Source: Siphonodentalium dalli
Taxonomy: Eukaryota; Mollusca; Scaphopoda; Gadilida; Siphonodentaliidae
NCBI GenBank assembly: GCA_032622095.1
Contig: CP136068.1
Coordinates: 164,011,465-164,075,464, forward strand
Direction: 5' to 3'
DNA length: 64,000 nucleotides
The first letter of the stretch is position 1; each line of letters starts with the position of its first letter. Of this stretch, positions 18,679-62,690 are shown piece after piece. The notes beneath the pieces were generated by a model. It did no database searches. It was not told where the DNA came from and saw only the letters and a program-made list of their open reading frames with translations. The position numbers and the translations under genes were made by a program.

Positions 18679-18705
18679 TATATATATATAGATAGATCAT
18701 GTCAT

Positions 18706-19971
18706 GAATCTCTAGTCCACCTATCCAGTATAGATATAAGTGAGTCTCTAGTCCACCTATCCAGTATAGGTATAAGTGAGTCTCTAGTCCACCTATCCAG
18801 TATAGGTATACGTGAGTCTCTAGTCCACCTATCCAGTATAGGTATAAGTGAGTCTCTAGTCCACCTATCCAGTATAGGTATAAGTGAGTCTCTAGTCCAC
18901 CTATCCAGTATAGGTATAAGTGAGTCTCTAGTCCACCTATTCAGTATAGGTATAAGTGAGTCTCTAGTCCACCTATCCAGTATAGGTATAAGTGAGTCTC
19001 TAGTCCACTTATCCAGTATAGGTATAAGTGAGTCTCTAGTCCACCTATCCAGTATAGGTAAAAGTGAGTCTCTAGTCCACCTATCCAGTATAGGTATAAG
19101 TGAGTCTCTAGTCCACCTATCCAGTATAGGTATAAGTGAGTCTCTAGTCCACCTATCCAGTATAGGTATAAGTGAGTCTCTAGTCCACCTATCCAGTATA
19201 GGTATAAGTGAGTCTCTAGTCCACCTATCCAGTATAGGTATAAGTGAGTCTCTAGTCCACCTATCCAGTATAGGTATAAGTGAGTCTCTAGTCCACCTAT
19301 TCAGTATAGGTATAAGTGAGTCTCTAGTCCACTTATCCAGTATAGGTATACGTGAGTCTCTATAGTCCACCTATTCAGTATAGGTATAAGTGAGTCTCTA
19401 GTCCACCTATCCAGTATAGGTATAAGTGAGTCTCTAGTCCACCTATCCAGTATAGGTATAAGTGAGTCTCTAGTCCACTTATCCAGTATAGGTATACGTG
19501 AGTCTCTAGTCCACCTATCCAGTATAGGTATAAGTGAGTCTCTAGTCCACCTATCCAGTATAGGTATAAGTGAGTCTCTAGTCCACCTATCCAGTATAGG
19601 TATAAGTGAGTCTCTAGTCCACCTATCCAGTATAGGTATAAGTGAGTCTCTAGTCCACCTATCCAGTATAGGTATAAGTGAGTCTCTAGTCCACCTATCC
19701 AGTATAGGTATAAGTGAGTCTCTAGTCCACCTATCCAGTATAGGTATAAGTGAGTCTCTAGTCCACCTATCCAGTATAGGTATAAGTGAGTCTCTAGTCC
19801 ACCTATCCAGTATAGGTATAAGTGAGTCTCTAGTCCACCTATTCAGTATAGGTATAAGTGAGTCTCTAGTCCACCTATTCAGTATAGGTATAAGTGAGTC
19901 TCTAGTCCACTTATCCAGTATAGGTATACGTGAGTCTCTATAGTCCACCTATCCATTATATGTATAAGCGA
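18706..19971. repeat. 36-bp satellite, about 35 copies
   Basis: The unit reads GAGTCTCTAGTCCACCTATC then CAGTATAGGTATAAGT. Two copies carry the same 2-bp insertion (CTCTATAGTCCACC, near 19360 and 19938), 578 bp apart (16 units plus 2 bp), so a block of the array was duplicated. The 36-bp period gives two long minus-strand frames made of a 12-residue repeat; these are not genes. The unit resembles the end of repeat UR (TATCCAGTATAGGTAAGTGG at 62654). Confidence 0.96.
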
Positions 19972-20039
19972 GTGTCCGGAAATATGGGAACTCTTTGATG
20001 TTCTGACCCCTTCTAACAGGGAACTCAATGATTTACTTG

Positions 20040-25256: not shown

Positions 25257-26100
25257 TTTACCTCCGTACGTCTGGTAACATTGGTTTTTACCTCCGTACG
25301 TCTGGTAACATTGGTTTTACCTCCGTACGTCTGGTAACATTGGTTTTACCTCCGTAGGTCTGGTAACATTGGTTTTACCTCTGTACGCCTGGTAACATTG
25401 GTTTTACCTCCGTACGTCTGGTAACATTGGTTTTACCTCTGTACGTCTGGTAACATTTGTTTTACCTCCGTACGTCTGGTAACATTGGTTATACCTCCGT
25501 ACGTCTGGTAACATTGGTTTTACCTCCGTACGTCTGGTTACATTGGTTTTACCTCCGTACGTCTGGTAACATTGGTTTTACCTCCGTACGTCTGGTAACA
25601 TTGGTTTTACCTCCGTACGTCTGGTAACATTGGTTTTACCTCCGTACGTCTGGTAACATTGGTTTTACCTCCATACGTCTGGTAACATTGGTTTTACCTC
25701 CGTACGTCTGGTAACATTGGTATTACCTCCGTACGCCTGGTTACATTGGTTTTACCTCCGTACGTCTGGTAACATTGGTTTTACCTCCGTACGTCTGGTA
25801 ACATTGATTTTACCTCCGTACGTCTGGTAACATTGGTTTTACCTCCGTACGTCTGGTAACATTGGTTTTACCTCCGTACGTCTGGTAACGTTGGTTTTAC
25901 CTCCGTACGTCTGGTAACGTTGGTTTTACCTCCGTACGTCTGGTAACATTGGTTTTACCTCCGTACGTCTGGTAACATTGGTTTTACCTCCGTACGTCTG
26001 GTAACATTGGTTTTACCTCCGTACGTCTGGTAACATTGGTTTTACCTCCGTACGTCTGGTAACATTGGTTTTACCTCCGTACGTCTGGTAACATTGGTTT
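25257..26100. repeat. 29-bp satellite, about 29 copies
   Basis: The unit is TTTTACCTCCGTACGTCTGG followed by TAACATTGG. Copies are very homogeneous, so the array is probably young. It sits inside repeat Z. The equivalent place in Z copy B carries the Helitron-like pair instead. Confidence 0.97.
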
Positions 26101-30040: not shown

Positions 30041-30457
30041 CTAACTCAGTATGTCCGGGTACGCATCTTGGAGGAATGTCTTGATGCTGGTACACATTTC
30101 GCCGAATAATTCTTCCACCTTTTGCTGTGATGGGACGGGGAACTCCTCGTCTGGGTACTTTTCCTTCACGTCACTGATTAAATCTCCCATATGATCGATG
30201 GTTTTACTGATGTCTTCATTCTTCTCCATGCGCACGCAAACTTCCATGATCGTCTTCAATGGGTTTTCATCTTCCTCTACGTCTCCCTCAGTATGTTCGT
30301 CTCCCATTCCGCGTTTTGACTCCAGTTCGTTGGCTAAGTCATTAAATCTGGATAGCCTCTCTTCATTTCTTCGAATTAACTTAGCACGCTTAGCTGTGTA
30401 ATGTGGTGAAAGGGCTACAGCAACGCCACATATAGCAAGAATGATCACTATACGCAT
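30041..30457 (-). CDS. Small secreted protein, 138 residues, paralogue 1
   Basis: The family was not recognised. Residues 1-16 form a signal peptide (MRIVIILAICGVAVAL), so the product is probably secreted. A basic segment follows (residues 22-36, including KRAKLIRR), then an acidic stretch (DEHTEGDVEEDEN, 53-65), then a helical C-terminal half with two cysteines (C74, C122) and the motif KYPDEEFPVPSQQKVEEL. The paralogue at 55396-55845 differs at only 9 of the last 114 residues, while flanking DNA carries many indels, which supports selection on the protein. The start aligns with the second Met of the paralogue. A conserved TTCTCTTTTTAG lies 15 bases upstream and looks like a 3' splice site, so a 5' non-coding exon is likely. 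The stop codon is embedded in the 27-bp array. It might be a peptide precursor or extracellular protein; no function is assigned. Confidence 0.82.
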   Translation of the reverse strand: MRIVIILAICGVAVALSPHYTAKRAKLIRRNEERLSRFNDLANELESKRGMGDEHTEGDVEEDENPLKTIMEVCVRMEKNEDISKTIDHMGDLISDVKEKYPDEEFPVPSQQKVEELFGEMCTSIKTFLQDAYPDILS

Positions 30458-30472
30458 TTTCGTGTATTTTCA

Positions 30473-34099: not shown

Positions 34100-35127
34100 C
34101 TTTGCGTAATTTCCTCAGTCATTAAGTTTGGAAAATCCCAATAAAACAAAAAAATATTACGCATATAACATAGTGTGCTTCTCGGGTTATTATATCAACA
34201 CTAGTGTACAAACGCACACTGACAACTACAAGCATGACAGACATCAGTTAAATCAAACGAAATAGGTCTAATTGGGTGCCATTTTGCTGAGTTGTATGTA
34301 AAAATCGTCAACAAGAACTTCCGCTCTAAATAAGATACATGTATGTCCAGATTTGGTGCAAGAAATATAGATAACGGGTTTGTAATCGGGTTACAGGGGT
34401 TGGTTACAAGTCATATGTGTTTTTTGTTTTGTTTTGTTTTTTAATTTTTGTTTTGTCACAACGTTTGCCGACCTTAGAGAATAACTCAAACTAGAACAAT
34501 TTAAATATTCCCGCTATGCTTGTGAAAAAAGGGGGATACAAAGGTACATTTGGAGGTCGTTTAAAGTGATATGAAACACTCATCTTGGGTGATCAAATAG
34601 AAATGGACAATAGTCTTGCTCAAAGTAGTTATTTTTTTTACAAATATTATATCCAAATTGACAACACACCCCGTAATTCTTATATATTCATTAAATGCAG
34701 CGACTCTCGATGCTTAGCGAAATTAGTTAGCTAGTTAGTCGCTGATATCGTGAAGTATATATTTACAATTGAGCGTATTTAGTTCAGACGATGTATTCTA
34801 TGGAGTTCTGCGGTTAATTGGCTTGAGATTGTCGGCGATGTTAGTAGAATGCTACATTCCTCAAGTTGACATAGCGCCTGCATGAGTACTAATTTATAAG
34901 TGTAACACACCCGAACAAGTGCAAACAAATCTTCTTCTTTTTTGTCACAAAGTTACATATGGAAGTCGTTACTTTCATTTTTCTAGTTGGGCTTATTCCC
35001 CGGTGAGCATTTGTACCTTTGTGACAAAAAATCACGTCGGATTTTTCAAACGACTTCCAAATATAACTTAGTAAACCTTTTTACAATGATAGGTGAAATA
35101 TTTTAATTGTTCTAGTTGGTGTTATTC
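34100..35127 (+). repeat. Dispersed repeat UR, copy 1, left part
   Basis: This is homologous to 60710-60777 plus 61590-61985 (ACGCATATAACATAGTGTGC, AAATAGGTCTAATTGGGTGC, ATGTATGTCCAGATTTGGTG). About 350 bp at 34575-34925 are absent from the second copy. It is interrupted at GGTGTTATTC by the long inverted-repeat element and resumes at 38301. Confidence 0.85.
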
Positions 35128-45683: not shown

Positions 45684-45712
45684 TCCTATACACAATTCAT
45701 TTCGTATAGGAG

Positions 45713-47047
45713 ATGCTTCTCAGAATTACTCTATATAGTCTAGTGCTACTTCTCCCACAAGTACCGTGCCACAGCAAGAAAGTTTCAGATTCGACGCCAA
45801 ATTATAAACAAAACTTTTACGGTAAGTTCCTGATTTTTGTTCTCTAAAATTCGACGAAAATTTTCCAGATCTGACCGATTATCCTCGGCTTGTAAAGTGT
45901 CTGCGGACTCTTTTTTGTCGTTATTTGTGTTGTATTTGTTTTACTAGAAAACTGCCCGTCAACAACACATGCTAAAGCCACATGGCGGATTGCACTCGAA
46001 AATACGCCAAAAATATAACTTTGAACACAATGTTTGGGTGGCAAACAAAATATCCATTTAAAAGTTAAATACAGTTTTCAGGATAGGCTCCTTTTAACCC
46101 CGCCCGCCTCTTTTGGACCCATTGGCTGTTAGCTGCAACTGTTCGGAAACCGACAAAAGCCGCGTGTTTCTTTCACAATATTAAGGCATTCAGCGATGCA
46201 AGGGTCATAACTCTATCAGTCTATATCGTAGTTTGCCTATAATGTACAATATGCATACAGGTACGGGTGGCGTTTGCATGACAGCTGTGAAACACGTAGA
46301 TACCATTAACTGTTGTATTTGCCTATAATGTACTTGTTCGGGTGTCGCTTGGTTCTTGAAAGACTGCAAAAAGTCCCTGAGTGTTCATATCGTAATCCAG
46401 ATATTTTAACTCTATATTGCATTCTAAAATTATTGAATTCTATTTTTGAATGCATTATAGAGTTAAAATATCCGGATTACGATATTCAGGTTGAAAATAT
46501 TGTAATATGTGAACAATAATTTTTTTTTGCTGTTACACATACTGTCATGTCAGCCCCTTTATCCCTCAACAATCTGTCTGAAAATTGAACTAGTTTTATA
46601 TGCACAAGCTCATTACAATCTCTGTGTTTGGGTACACAAATTTGCCCCTTGTGGTAATTATCTCATTTGTGATGACAAAAGAAATGAATTTCCACTCGTG
46701 GCAGAGCCACTTTTTGTTATCGTTGTCGTCGTCGATGTTGTAGTCGTTGTTGTTGTTGTTAACGTTTTTGTTGTTGTTTGTGTTGTTGTATTTGTTGTTG
46801 TTGCTGCTGCTGCTGTTGTTGTTGTTGTGGACCACAAGTTACTTTTTGTGGTTGATCATGCTTTCTTTCTCTTCTATCAGGGTTTTCCGGTATAACGCTC
46901 TCTACTCAGTTGTGTCGCCTGTGCTATCGTCTGCGAGACATGGAATGTTTATCCAGGTTTTGTGACGTCGCGCCGCTGTATGTCCAGACAGTCAATGAGA
47001 ATGATATGGTGCATAATTACTTTATCTACAGATCTTTCGCTCCGTGA
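45713..47047 (+). CDS. Two-exon gene for a 91-residue secreted cysteine-containing peptide
   Basis: Exon 1 is 45713-45821 and exon 2 is 46881-47047, ending in TGA. The junction is phase 1: TTTTACG, then donor GTAAGT (perfect consensus), and acceptor CTTTCTTTCTCTTCTATCAG then GGTTTTCC. The product starts MLLRITLYSLVLLLPQVPCH, a good signal peptide with probable cleavage near residue 21. The mature part has four cysteines at 48, 51, 59 and 64 (C-x2-C-x7-C-x4-C) in TQLCRLCYRLRDMEC and LSRFCDVAP. It ends YRSFAP. The only dibasic site is KK at 22-23. The family was not recognised; a neuropeptide-like or other extracellular peptide is possible. The intron (1,059 bp) holds a 115-bp palindrome and a trinucleotide repeat. 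A second donor-like GTGAGC lies just after the stop, and a repetitive element starts within 40 bp of it. This is inferred from the sequence alone. Confidence 0.6.
46376..46490. repeat. 115-bp palindrome inside the intron
   Basis: CCTGAGTGTTCATATCGTAA followed by TCCAGATATTTTAACTCTAT pairs with ATAGAGTTAAAATATCCGGA followed by TTACGATATTCAGG, around AATTATTGAATTC. The 68-codon frame at 46313-46519 is a by-product of it. Confidence 0.92.
46716..46835. repeat. (GTT/GTC)n trinucleotide repeat
   Basis: An imperfect run of GTT, GTC and GCT triplets within the intron. It produces poly-V, poly-L and poly-N open frames that are not genes. Confidence 0.95.
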
Positions 47048-47068
47048 ATTAAAGGTGAGCTAAATTGA

Positions 47069-47480
47069 TCACGCTGGTCATCCTATAAACCGCGTTGCGG
47101 GCATACAATCCATAAACCGCGCTGTGGGCATATAATCCGTAAACCACGTTGTGAGCATATAATCCGTAAACAGCTTTCTGGACATATAATCCGTAAACCG
47201 CGTTGTCGGCATATAATTCGTAAACCGCGTTGTGGGCATATAATCCGCAAACCGCGTTGTCGGCATATAATCCATAAACCGCGTTGTCGCATATAAACCG
47301 TAAACCGCGTTGTGGGCATATAATCCGTAAACCTCGTGACAGGCATATAATCCGTAAACCTCGTGACAGGCATATAATCTGTAAACCTCGTGACAGGCAT
47401 ATAATCCATAAACCTCGTGACAGGCATATAATCTGTAAACCTCGTGACAGGCAATAATCCGTAAACCGCGTTGCGGACAC
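47069..47480. repeat. 27-bp minisatellite, about 15 copies
   Basis: The unit is ATAATCCGTAAACCGCGTTG followed by TGGGCAT. In the later part it switches to a subtype with CCTCGTGACAGGCAT. It starts after CACGCTGGTCATCCT, as at 2734. Frames open through it are artefacts. Confidence 0.95.
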
Positions 47481-50999: not shown

Positions 51000-52440
51000 A
51001 AGCAACGGTTAAGAGATTACATTATTGACGTAGGCTCCTGGCCCTGGACGTATGAAGCGACGGTTAAGAGATTACATTAGTGACGTAGGCTCCTGGCCCT
51101 GGACGTATGAAGCGACGGTTAAGAGATTACATTAGTGACGTAGGCTCCTGGTCCCGAACGTCCGAAGAGACGATCTAGAGATTACAGTAGTGACGTATGT
51201 TCCTAAAGAGATGGTTTTGAGATTACATTAGTGACGTATGTTCCTGAAGGGATGGTTTTGAGATTACATTGGTGACGTATGTTCCAGAAGGAATGGTTTT
51301 GAGATTACATTGGTGACGTATGTTCCAGAAGGAATGGTTTTGAGATTACATTGGTGACGTATGTTCCTGAAGGGACGGTTTCGAGATTACATTAGTGACG
51401 TATGGTCCTAAAGAGATGGTTTAAAGATTACATTAGTGACGTATGTTCCAGAAGGAATGGTTTTGAGATTACATTGGTGACGTAGATTCCTGAAGGGATG
51501 GTTTTGAGATTACATTAGTGACGTATGTTCCTGAAGGGATGGTTTTGAGATTACATTGGTGACGTATGTTCCAGAAGGAATGGTTTTGAGATTACATTGG
51601 TGACGTATGTTCCAGAAGGAATGGTTTTGAGATTACATTGGTGACGTATGTTCCAGAAGGAATGGTTTTGAGATTACATTGGTGACGTATGTTCCAGAAG
51701 GAATGGTTTTGAGATTACATTGGTGACGTATGTTCCAGAAGGAATGGTTTTGAGATTACATTAGTGACGTATGTTCCTGGATGGATGGTTTTGAGATTAC
51801 ATTAGTGACGTATGTTCCTGAAGGGATGGTTTTGAGATTACATTAGTGACGTATGTTCCTGAAGGGATGGTTTTGAGATTACATTAGTGACGTATGTTCC
51901 AGAAGGAATGGTTTTGAGATTACATTAGTGACGTATGTTCCAGAAGGAATGGTTTTGAGATTACATTAGTGATGTAGCTTCCTGGATGGATGGTTTTGAG
52001 ATTACATTAGTGACGTATGTTCCAGAAGGAATGGTTTTGAGATTACATTGGTGACGTATGTTCCAGAAGGAATGGTTTTGAGATTACATTAGTGACGTAT
52101 GTTCCTGAAGGGGTGGTTTTGAGATTACATTAGTGACGTATGTTCCTGAAGGGATGGTTTTGAGATTACATTAGTGACGTATGTTCCTGAAGGGATGGTT
52201 TTGAGATTACATTAGTGACGTATGTTCCAGAAGGAATGGTTTTGAGATTACATTAGTGACGTATGTTCCAGAAGGAATGGTTTTGAGATTACATTAGTGA
52301 CGTATGTTCCTGAAGGGATGGTTTTGAGATTACATTGGTGACGTAGGTTCCCGATGTGATTTTTTTGGAGGTTACATTAGTGGCGTAAGTTCATGAAAGG
52401 ATTGTTTAGAGTTTGCATTAGTGACCTATGTTCCTGTTCC
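51000..52440. repeat. 41-bp satellite, about 34 copies
   Basis: The unit is GAGATTACATTAGTGACGTA then TGTTCCTGAAGGGATGGTTT then T. The first three units are a longer 52-55-bp variant with GGCTCCTGGCCCTGG. The edges are more diverged than the centre. Each unit contains TGACGTA, close to a CREB/ATF half-site; its significance is unknown. Confidence 0.96.
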
Positions 52441-54120: not shown

Positions 54121-55070
54121 TTGCACCTTAACATGACCCACCAACCTCGTAGCACCTTAACGTGTCCCACAACCCTCGTAGCACATTAACATGACCCACC
54201 AACATCATGGCACCTTAACATGACCCACTAACATCGTAGCACTTTAACATGACCCACCAACATCATAGCACCTTAACATGACCCACCAACATCATAGCAC
54301 CTTAACATGGCCCACCAACATAGCACCTTAAGATGACCCACCAACAGCATAGCACCTTAAAAGGGCCCACCAACAGCATAGCACCTTAACATGACCCACC
54401 AACATTATAGCCCCTTAACATGACCCACCAACATCATAGCACCTTAACATGACCCACCAACATCATAGCACCTTAACATGACCCACCAACATCATAGCAC
54501 CTTAACATAAGCCACCAACATCATAGCACCTTAGCATGTCCCACCAACATCATAGCACCTTAACATGACCCACCAACAGCATATCACCTTAAAAGGGCCA
54601 ACCAACAGCATAGCACCTTAACATGATCCACCAACACCATAGCACCATAACATGACCCACCAACATCATAGCACCTTAACATGACCCATCAACATAGCAC
54701 CTTAACATGACCCACCAACAGCATAGCACATTAACAGGACCCATCAACAGCATATCATCTTAAAAGGACCCATCATCATCGTAGCACCTTAACATGACCC
54801 ACCAACATCATAGCACCTTAACATGACCCACCAACATCATATCACACCTTAACAGGACCCACCAACATCATAGCACCTTAACAGGACCCATCAACAGCAT
54901 AGCACATTACCAGGACCCATCAAAATCATAGCACCTTAACAGGACCCACCAACATCATATCACACCTTAACAGGACCCATCAAAATCATAGCACCTTAAC
55001 AGGACCCATCAACAGCATAGCACCTTAACGGGACCCATCAACATCATAGCACATTAACAGGACCCGCCAA
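54121..55070. repeat. 29-bp satellite, about 32 copies
   Basis: The unit is ACCTTAACATGACCCACCAA followed by CATCATAGC. Variants include AACAGGACCCATCAA, which is enriched toward the right end. It ends where the ACGTACAC array of the gene's 3' side begins. Confidence 0.96.
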
Positions 55071-55074
55071 CGTC

Positions 55075-55395: not shown

Positions 55396-55845
55396 CTAAC
55401 TCAGTATGTCCGGGTACGCATCTTGGAGGAATGTCTTTATGCTGGTACACATTTCGCCGAATAATTCTTCCACCTTTTGCTGTGATGGGGCGGGGAACTC
55501 CTCATCCGGGTACTTCTCCTTCACGTCACTGATTAAATCTCCCATATGTTCGATGGTTTTACTGATGTCTTCATTTTTCTCGATGCGCACGCAAACTTCC
55601 ATGATCGTCTTCAATGGGTTTTCATCTTCCTCTACGTCTGCCTCAGTATGTTCGTCTCCCATTCCGCGTTTTGCCTCCAATTCGTTGGCTAAGTCATTCA
55701 ATCTGGCTAGCCTCTCTTCATTTCTTCTAATTAGCTGTGAACGCTTAGCTGCATATGGTTTACCGCCATTATTCCCAGCAGGAACGTAGCCATGGACTGC
55801 AGCAACGCAAAATATAGCAAGAATTATTACTGTACGCATTTTCAT
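55396..55845 (-). CDS. Small secreted protein, 149 residues, paralogue 2
   Basis: The family was not recognised. A signal peptide (MKMRTVIILAIFCVAAVHG) is followed by an insert absent from paralogue 1 (YVPAGNNGGKPYA). The shared body follows: basic segment KRSQLIRRNEERLARLND, acidic stretch 65-76, cysteines at 85 and 133, and C-terminus FLQDAYPDILS. The last 114 residues differ from paralogue 1 at 9 positions, mostly conservative (S/A, M/I, D/E, V/A). Two start codons are possible (Met1 or Met3); only Met3 aligns with paralogue 1. TTCTCTTTTCAG ends 11 bases upstream of the first ATG, a good 3' splice site. The gene is probably extracellular; no function is assigned. Confidence 0.82.
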   Translation of the reverse strand: MKMRTVIILAIFCVAAVHGYVPAGNNGGKPYAAKRSQLIRRNEERLARLNDLANELEAKRGMGDEHTEADVEEDENPLKTIMEVCVRIEKNEDISKTIEHMGDLISDVKEKYPDEEFPAPSQQKVEELFGEMCTSIKTFLQDAYPDILS

Positions 55846-55854
55846 GTGTTTTTA

Positions 55855-60709: not shown

Positions 60710-62690
60710 AATACCAATAAAACCAAAGAACTATTTCGCGTATAACCTAGTGCGCTTCTCCGGTTATTATATCAACACTCAATTCAATTATTTATTCACT
60801 CAAATCGTCAAATATGACACAATAGAGCTTGGTGGAATACAGTGCATATAATTTCTGTGCAAATTACAAAAGTGGTGCGCGGTGAAAATTACACATATTA
60901 TAATAATACAGTTGATTGAGAACAGCCCATGGTTGTGCAAATGTCGGATTTTATTGTGTTACGTATATAGTATGCCTCAGGAGTTTTTGAATAAAATCAG
61001 GACCCGTCTAATGAAAAGAGATTGGTTTTTCAAGGTTTTACGTCGTTTACAGTTAAAAAGTTCGCTTAATTTGATGGTATTTGGTCGACAATAATAATAT
61101 TTGTGTATGTATTTGACTCTCAGGTATTTTAAACACGGGCATTGCAATATTACGTGGAATTCGTCCCCTATATTTGTACCGCATAGAGTACATAGTCTAT
61201 CGGAATAATCTGAGTTAATCCATGAACCTGATTCGATTGGTAAGTGGTGGTTGCGGGTACGAAATTTCAGAAGTATTTGGACGGTGTCGTTTTTCACGAA
61301 AAAGAGGAATTTGTCTTTGGTGAAGTCGTATTTTATAATTCTGTAAAAGGCATACTTATTTGAATTACATATTGTACCTCTCCATTCTTGAATGAATTGG
61401 TCTTCCATCCTACACTTGACCGACTTCTTTAATCTGTCGAGACTAGATAATGTGTGATTGATCCATGTACCCCCCATTCCAAGTTCATTTAACACTTTAT
61501 GCACATTTGCAATCCATGGGTTGTTAACGTTAGATGAGTTGTAATAAGTGAGTAATATATAATACAGTATAAATGGTAGCCTATTGCAGTTCAAACGCAC
61601 ACTGACAACAATAATCGCGACAAGCATCAGTCAAATCAAACGAAATAGGTCTAATTGGGTGCCATTTTGCTGAGTTGTATGTAGAAATCGTCAACAAGAA
61701 CTTCCGCTCTAAATAAAATACATGTATGTCCAGATTTGGTGCAAGAAATATACATTACACGTTTGTAATCGGGTTACAGGGGTTACAAGTCAGACATATT
61801 TTTTTTGTCACAACGTTTGCTTACCGTTAGAAAAATGCAAATATTTCCGCTATGCTTGTGAACAAGGGTTTACACAGGTACATTTGGACGTCGTTTAAAG
61901 TGATATGAAAAAATCCTTTTTTTTTACTTTTTTTTTTTGGTCACAAAGTTACATTTGGAAGTCGCTAATTTCATTTTTCTAGTTGGAGTTATACAAAATA
62001 GTGATGTGTCGTATTCGGTTTTTGAATGTGTGTAAGACGTGTGCGAGTTGCGTGCGAAAGTCCCCCTCGCCGCCCAAAACAGGACATTATTGTTGCTATT
62101 GTCGTTATGCTGTGTATGTTTGTTTAATGCGACCATGTATATAGTGTCGATAAAGTATTAATCAAATAAAAAACATGTCTTAAAAGTATATCAAGAATAA
62201 ACTCACCTCAGCGAATATTACCAAATAAAATCTGAGAAATCGACTGTATGTTTTATATATCGTCACGTTAAAACTAGGACTCGATACAGGCCTGTCTGTT
62301 ACCTTCGACTTTATATAACGTTCGTTTACCCCCACACACATACAGGGTTGCTAAGTTCATATCGCTTTGAGAGATTGTTGCATAACTGAAGTCGTACCAT
62401 TTTCACAATCCACTGACTTCAATTGAAAGGAAATAACAAAGAGGTTTAAAGCAGACAATAGCCGATTTGATAATCGAAGCAGACACATGGATTACCGGGT
62501 ATATAGTAAACTGGTTATTTAACAGGATGATCTCCAAATTGGAACATTTCGACCGTAGGCCAGCACCATTATGCAACATGCCGAGGGCGATATATCGAAT
62601 ACGCACGGCTACAGAACTAACTGACGACCCTTTCGAAGGTCCTGATTAATAGGTATATCCAGTATAGGTAAGTGGGTGTCCGACCAGGTA
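60710..62690 (+). repeat. Dispersed repeat UR, copy 2, with a LINE insertion
   Basis: The UR blocks 60710-60777, 61590-61900 and 61925-62690 are homologous to 34100-35127, 38301-39335 and 6500-7435. It ends CAGTATAGGTAAGTGGGTGT. The interruption at 60778-61589 is a LINE fragment. Confidence 0.87.
60778..61589 (-). pseudogene. 5'-truncated LINE reverse-transcriptase fragment
   Basis: An uninterrupted minus-strand frame (60977-61627) reads into the element from the UR flank; its first 12 residues are flank-encoded. The body contains NPWIANVHKVLNELGMGGTW, LLKFRTRNHHLPIESGSW and then the zinc knuckle C146-x2-C149-x8-H158-x4-C163 (RLCTLCGTNIGDEFHVILQ). This is the C-terminal end of a non-LTR retrotransposon protein; the RT domain itself is absent. 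Copy 1 of UR at about 34202 (CAACACTAGTGTACAAACGC) is the empty site. About 200 bp of 3' UTR follow the stop, with no clear poly-A tail. Confidence 0.82.

Follow-up and report, generated by a model that had tools for sequence, protein, structure and literature searches.

Secreted-peptide genes that are short and split by an intron are among those that annotation most easily misses, and the locus described here raises the question whether such a gene lies at positions 45713 to 47047 of a stretch of 64,000 nucleotides (nt) from the scaphopod mollusc Siphonodentalium dalli. This whole stretch, called the window in the following, is C8:164011465-164075464, C8 standing for contig CP136068.1. According to the original prediction, two exons there encode a secreted peptide with four cysteines. 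Its exon and intron coordinates, GTAAGT donor, 1,059-nt intron, CAG acceptor, matching phase, cysteine spacing C-x2-C-x7-C-x4-C and product length of 91 residues were all present as given, and the gene itself was borne out by six intact copies on C8 with a common exon structure and by purifying selection. A gene picked from raw sequence was thus confirmed by the conservation of its paralogues. The explanation that we consider best, with a probability of roughly 0.6, is a genuine spliced gene belonging to a family of small, secreted, disulphide-bonded peptides that has been amplified locally and whose members may act as signalling ligands. Its parts are of different firmness: that the gene encodes a secreted disulphide peptide is almost certain; the role of an extracellular signalling ligand is a tentative assignment.

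Anatomy of the two-exon gene

The elements of the gene are the following (positions in the window; "copies" are the six on C8):

45687..45712, + strand: leader of 26 nt that precedes the ATG and is the same in all six copies
45713..45821, + strand: coding exon 1, ATG at 45713, 36 codons plus one nucleotide, open in all six copies
45713..45775, + strand: predicted signal peptide, likely cut after Ser21, hydrophobicity score 2.64
45822..46880, + strand: phase-1 intron of 1,059 nt, from GTAAGT to CAG
45822..45827, + strand: donor GTAAGT, the same in all six copies, fourth best of 4,088 GT sites on that strand
46861..46880, + strand: CAG acceptor with its pyrimidine tract, the best of 2,789 AG sites on that strand
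46881..47047, + strand: coding exon 2, 54 codons after the junction codon, stop codon TGA at 47045-47047
46913..46963, + strand: cysteine core C48-x2-C51-x7-C59-x4-C64, none of 17 residues variable in the six copies
47055..47060, + strand: strong donor GTGAGC, 7 nt past the stop codon, rank 2 of 4,088 GT sites, no third exon identified

The product comprises 91 residues plus stop, encoded by 276 nt with a phase-1 splice junction. Splice sites were ranked on the + strand of the 64-kilobase (kb) window with generic matrices that are not species-trained, and the signal-peptide cut was predicted with the (-3,-1) rule for cleavage. The acceptor score of the window copy is common to all five copies scored, itself included, and the sixth has the same 20 nt at its intron end. 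The donor context is weaker, with A at position -1, in the copies at 163.68 and 167.18 megabases (Mb).

It is possible, at somewhat less than even odds, that both exons are real and that the transcript nevertheless differs from the model by an extra exon in the 5′ untranslated region (UTR) or by a 3′ exon after 47055, with the coding core unchanged. The donor at 47055, second best on its strand, could mark the start of a 3′-UTR intron, and AAAGGTGAG after the stop codon is kept in the six C8 copies, though not in two more distant copies near 150 Mb. As a counterweight, the stop codon precedes this donor in all six copies, so that the coding end would not change, and no third exon was identified downstream; at the 5′ side the candidate acceptor at 45709 is a poor one, with a score of -0.6 (rank 418 of 2,789).

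Copies of the gene and selection acting on them

The genome, 2.23 gigabases in nine contigs, was searched with the two exon peptides. The six matches of exon 1 lie on C8 without exception and are open; exon 2 gave 13, of which six were close (likewise open and on C8), three distant and four weak. The weak ones, with expectation values (E) of 0.6-5.2, were dropped: three contain stops and the fourth does not have the cysteine spacing. Where the original prediction had described a single gene, the window copy proved to be one of a C8 cluster of six, arranged in two facing groups: three genes on the + strand, at 163.68, 163.81 and 164.06 Mb (the window copy), and three on the - strand, at 167.02 and 167.08 Mb and with exons at 167.18 and 167.16 Mb. 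Every one of the six has a 276-nt coding sequence free of stops, insertions and deletions, two exons joined in phase 1, and the C-x2-C-x7-C-x4-C core. No broken copies were seen among the C8 exon matches. Four genes, the window's included, have introns of 1,059, 1,059, 1,908 and 1,312 nt; in the remaining two the introns are about 5.3 and 16.6 kb long, as reckoned from the exon positions.

Synonymous divergence among the six copies reaches 0.28, which speaks against their being assembly duplicates of a single locus. The ratio of non-synonymous to synonymous divergence (dN/dS, Nei-Gojobori) lies between 0.14 and 0.37 in all 15 pairs, which are not independent of one another. When the three mirror pairs (window/167.02, 163.81/167.08 and 163.68/167.18) were pooled, 12 synonymous changes in 185 sites stood against 8 non-synonymous changes in 634 (Fisher p = 0.0003, sites rounded), and the comparison of the window copy with the 163.68 copy gave p = 0.0007 in the same test. 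Of the 92 columns at each codon position, 13, 8 and 23 are variable at the first, second and third, respectively (p = 0.019). Read together, these substitution patterns point to purifying selection on the six copies. Five nucleotide columns between C48 and C64 are variable, four of which are third codon positions, yet none of the 17 residues changes; more variation is seen in the leader, the linker and the tail than in this core.

Three distant copies of exon 2 were found beyond the cluster:

C8:150259441-150259608, - strand: distant exon-2 copy, acceptor score 8.4
C8:150378724-150378891, - strand: distant exon-2 copy, acceptor score 8.4
C4:166985315-166985425, - strand: distant exon-2 copy, acceptor score 6.1

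The acceptor of the window copy scores 11.1 for comparison. In all three the acceptor is in phase 1 and the cysteines are spaced C-x2-C-x7-C-x4-C, with identities of 44, 46 and 43% over 34, 35 and 28 residues (C8 at 150.26, C8 at 150.38 and C4 at 166.98 Mb, respectively). In a reciprocal genome search, two distant copies used as queries recovered the close ones. Matches between the three groups have E-values from 3.9e-6 to 0.059, the C4 copy being the weakest link; its match in the reciprocal search shows one stop, where the alignment overruns the frame of that exon. Two other matches obtained with a distant copy contain a stop each and were dropped. Exon 2 of the 150-Mb pair differs by a dS of 0.23 and a dN of 0.09 (Fisher p = 0.04). 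Upstream of the C4 copy, at a distance of 12.1 kb, there is a candidate leader exon followed by a phase-1 donor; about 0.3 such exons are expected by chance, as derived from the density of leaders with donors in shuffled sequence. No first exon common to the 150-Mb pair was found within about 17 kb upstream, and a single weak candidate 2.1 kb upstream of the 150.38-Mb copy has no counterpart in the 150.26-Mb copy. Within this genome, conservation of the cysteine frame, which had been proposed as a check of the gene, holds in nine of nine copies. The core shared across the family, C-x-[IL]-C-x4-D-x-E-C-[IL]-x-[RK]-[FY]-C, together with the phase-1 intron, makes the family searchable in other animals.

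Possible functions of the four-cysteine peptide

That the product belongs to no recognised family, as had been supposed, agrees with our searches. Pfam returned no match at E <= 10 for the full window product or four other copies, bearing in mind that the HMMER filters drop most weak matches. Exon 2 alone gave a hint of the zf-DPOE zinc finger, scoring 14.5 bits where the curated cut-off is 21 (E 0.04); neither the full protein nor four other copies showed it. Two products had no match in NCBIfam, whose prokaryote families carry little weight for an animal gene. In PDB sequence searches the window product remained without a match, and the family profile produced three rows at chance level. AlphaFold2, run on exon 2 alone and without an alignment, predicted helices L43-L54 and M57-F63 plus a weaker strand pair, with a mean predicted local distance difference test (pLDDT) of 76 for the best model and 62-66 for the other four; Foldseek and VIA-align found nothing credible with this model. 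There is no credible relative of the four-cysteine family in the sequence and fold collections searched (Pfam, NCBIfam, PDB and structures).

The leaders of all six C8 copies are hydrophobic by reading. Flanking dibasic convertase sites are absent from the nine sequences, as are amidation signals (GK or GR), the first exon not being identified for two of the nine. The only dibasic site in the six C8 copies is KK directly after the signal peptide, and in the three distant copies RK or RR occurs only inside the core. Judged by its sequence, the product does not look like a standard neuropeptide precursor, because flanking convertase sites and an amidation signal are both missing; the earlier suggestion of a neuropeptide precursor therefore finds no support in the processing sites. 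One exact APGWamide-type pattern had no match in the genome, and a search for the haemocyanin family gave no match here and none in 14 control genomes either.

From these features we infer the following course of events. Exon 1 would encode the signal peptide and a short linker, and exon 2 the mature four-cysteine region. The product would enter the secretory pathway and lose about 21 residues; two disulphides, probably nested as C48-C64 and C51-C59, would staple two short helices, and a single chain of about 70 residues would leave the cell, where the invariant core may contact a receptor as an extracellular ligand. The gene itself belongs to a partly mirror-image C8 cluster with at least six intact copies, and three older relatives lie elsewhere. 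If the signalling role is true, the family offers candidate ligands for orphan receptors of invertebrates. A far-reaching version of this scheme appears unlikely to us: an undescribed family of animal peptide hormones, i.e., receptor ligands in the form of a disulphide-stapled helical hairpin, which are released without convertase cleavage, have been co-amplified with a second secreted family in a mirror-image cluster and perhaps act together with it.

Among described systems, the nearest in kind, by description, is PXRX, a conchiferan mollusc pro-neuropeptide family reported to have four conserved cysteines, two expected intramolecular disulphides and no match to other families (PMC6425005). 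Four conserved cysteines are likewise found in our nine sequences, a likeness in the number of cysteines. The P[FM]R[WY] motif of PXRX occurs in none of the nine, two of them without an identified first exon; according to the same source, two Dreissena PXRX sequences do not have it either (PMC6425005). Endothelin genes are reported to occur only in vertebrates (PMC4815360). Like endothelins, the product described here would be a short secreted peptide; it has four cysteines and an acidic-Cys step, and its disulphides are probably nested. In endothelins, too, the core is encoded close to the beginning of the second coding exon. However, the endothelin spacing is C-x-C-x7-C-x3-C, which is present in none of the nine sequences with their C-x2-C-x7-C-x4-C; Pfam holds an endothelin model, yet the full product has no Pfam match, and there is no dibasic site just before the core. 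Hairpinin-type peptides are similar in that two short helices are expected to be joined by two disulphides; they differ in cysteine spacing (C-x3-C ... C-x3-C), and neither a sequence nor a fold match to them was obtained. Finally, CLCCY and other lophotrochozoan cysteine-containing precursors are reported to be lineage-restricted, secreted and of unknown function (PMC3890597, PMC8557429, PMC8398477), a likeness to our family in general description.

How well does the ligand role stand against other functions of a secreted peptide? An effector, be it a venom component or a defensive or antimicrobial peptide with two disulphides that was amplified in a cluster, is unlikely. Members of another amplified family of small secreted proteins lie among the six copies on C8 (see below), and no known hormone family fits; the amplification argues for a fast-evolving effector and weighs against the ligand role. 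The sequence between the cysteines is nonetheless invariant in six of six copies and dN/dS is well below 1 in every pair, the opposite of the pattern that is usual for venom and immune peptides. Moreover, the C48-C64 core carries only about two net positive charges by our own count and is not strongly cationic like many antimicrobial peptides. Since the core is unvarying while leader, linker and tail are variable, we favour a fixed binding partner over a fast-evolving or hypervariable effector. As invariant core and amplification point in opposite directions, we hold the ligand role at a little under even odds.

Equally unlikely as an effector is a secreted structural, mucus, egg or reproductive-tract protein that does not signal through a receptor. 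Such a protein would suit the local amplification, the lack of convertase sites and the co-clustering with a second secreted family of unknown nature; on the other hand, the product is very small, has a single cysteine core without internal repeats, and its conservation is confined to that core instead of extending over the whole chain.

In order to judge how readily such a gene model arises by chance, models consisting of an ATG with hydrophobic leader, a donor, an acceptor within 2-3 kb and a phase-matched open exon 2 were sought in the window and in 300 order-3 shuffles of it made block by block, on both strands in each case. The window yielded exactly one two-exon model at each of five settings, the candidate at 45713-47047. 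At about the candidate's own scores, thresholds that were chosen post hoc, none of the 300 shuffles contained a model; with moderate scores and four cysteines one did. Loose scores gave models in 19 of 300 shuffles with four cysteines, in 87 with any number of cysteines, and in 36 with any number and an exon 2 of at least 50 residues. A separate set of 60 shuffles at three other settings gave none. Taken alone, the shuffle evidence is suggestive and not decisive; it is the paralogues that settle the reality of the gene. A chance alignment of open frame, donor-like site and pyrimidine tract, for which the loose models in shuffles would speak, is practically negligible in view of six conserved copies of fixed phase and length under purifying selection and three distant ones.

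The C8 cluster and other features of the window

The two facing groups of the four-cysteine family span 163.68-164.06 Mb (+) and 167.02-167.18 Mb (-). From their positions and introns we read the mirror copies as sister pairs; their dS values are 0.03, 0.12 and 0.05. A dS of 0.03 could come from two haplotypes assembled twice; a dS of 0.12 is hard to explain in this way. The mirror-image arrangement of this and the second secreted-protein family may go back to an inverted segmental duplication that was later rearranged, or may in part be an assembly duplicate. The coding sequence of the 163.81 copy is 96.0% identical to the window copy and 95.7% to its mirror partner at 167.08 Mb, whereas its intron is 79.6% identical to the former and 94.1% to the latter; because coding and intron identities disagree, some exchange between the C8 copies is possible.

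The second family of small secreted proteins is represented in the window by two paralogous open reading frames for secreted-looking proteins of about 140-150 residues, 30041-30469 and 55396-55851 (- strand). One of them gave only Pfam rows far below cut-off and the other none. With 55396-55851 as query, 20 match rows at 18 places were obtained, 17 of these on C8 and one on C4. Those on C8 extend over 163.74-167.13 Mb, within both groups of the four-cysteine family and between them (164.10, 164.56, 166.94 and 166.98 Mb).

Two repeats lie in the intron and outside the coding gene:

46387..46485, no strand assigned: inverted repeat resembling a miniature inverted-repeat transposable element (MITE), 44-nt arms, 93% complementary
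46485..46711, no strand assigned: dispersed repeat pieces, also on the other eight contigs (nine in all)

Distinct, long minisatellite arrays with 27-45-base units occupy 1-2357, 18705-19973, 25257-26100, 47086-47476, 51178-52434 and 54123-55071. Two copies of a similar translated stretch, CHFAELYV[EK]IVNKN, are located at 34277-34318 and 61660-61701 (+ strand) and probably represent one repeat element; the stretch shows a weak chance match (E about 1) to the tail of exon 2. On the - strand, an open frame of 217 codons at 60977-61630 has no Pfam match; we take it to resemble the C-terminal part of a reverse transcriptase of the non-long-terminal-repeat (non-LTR) type.
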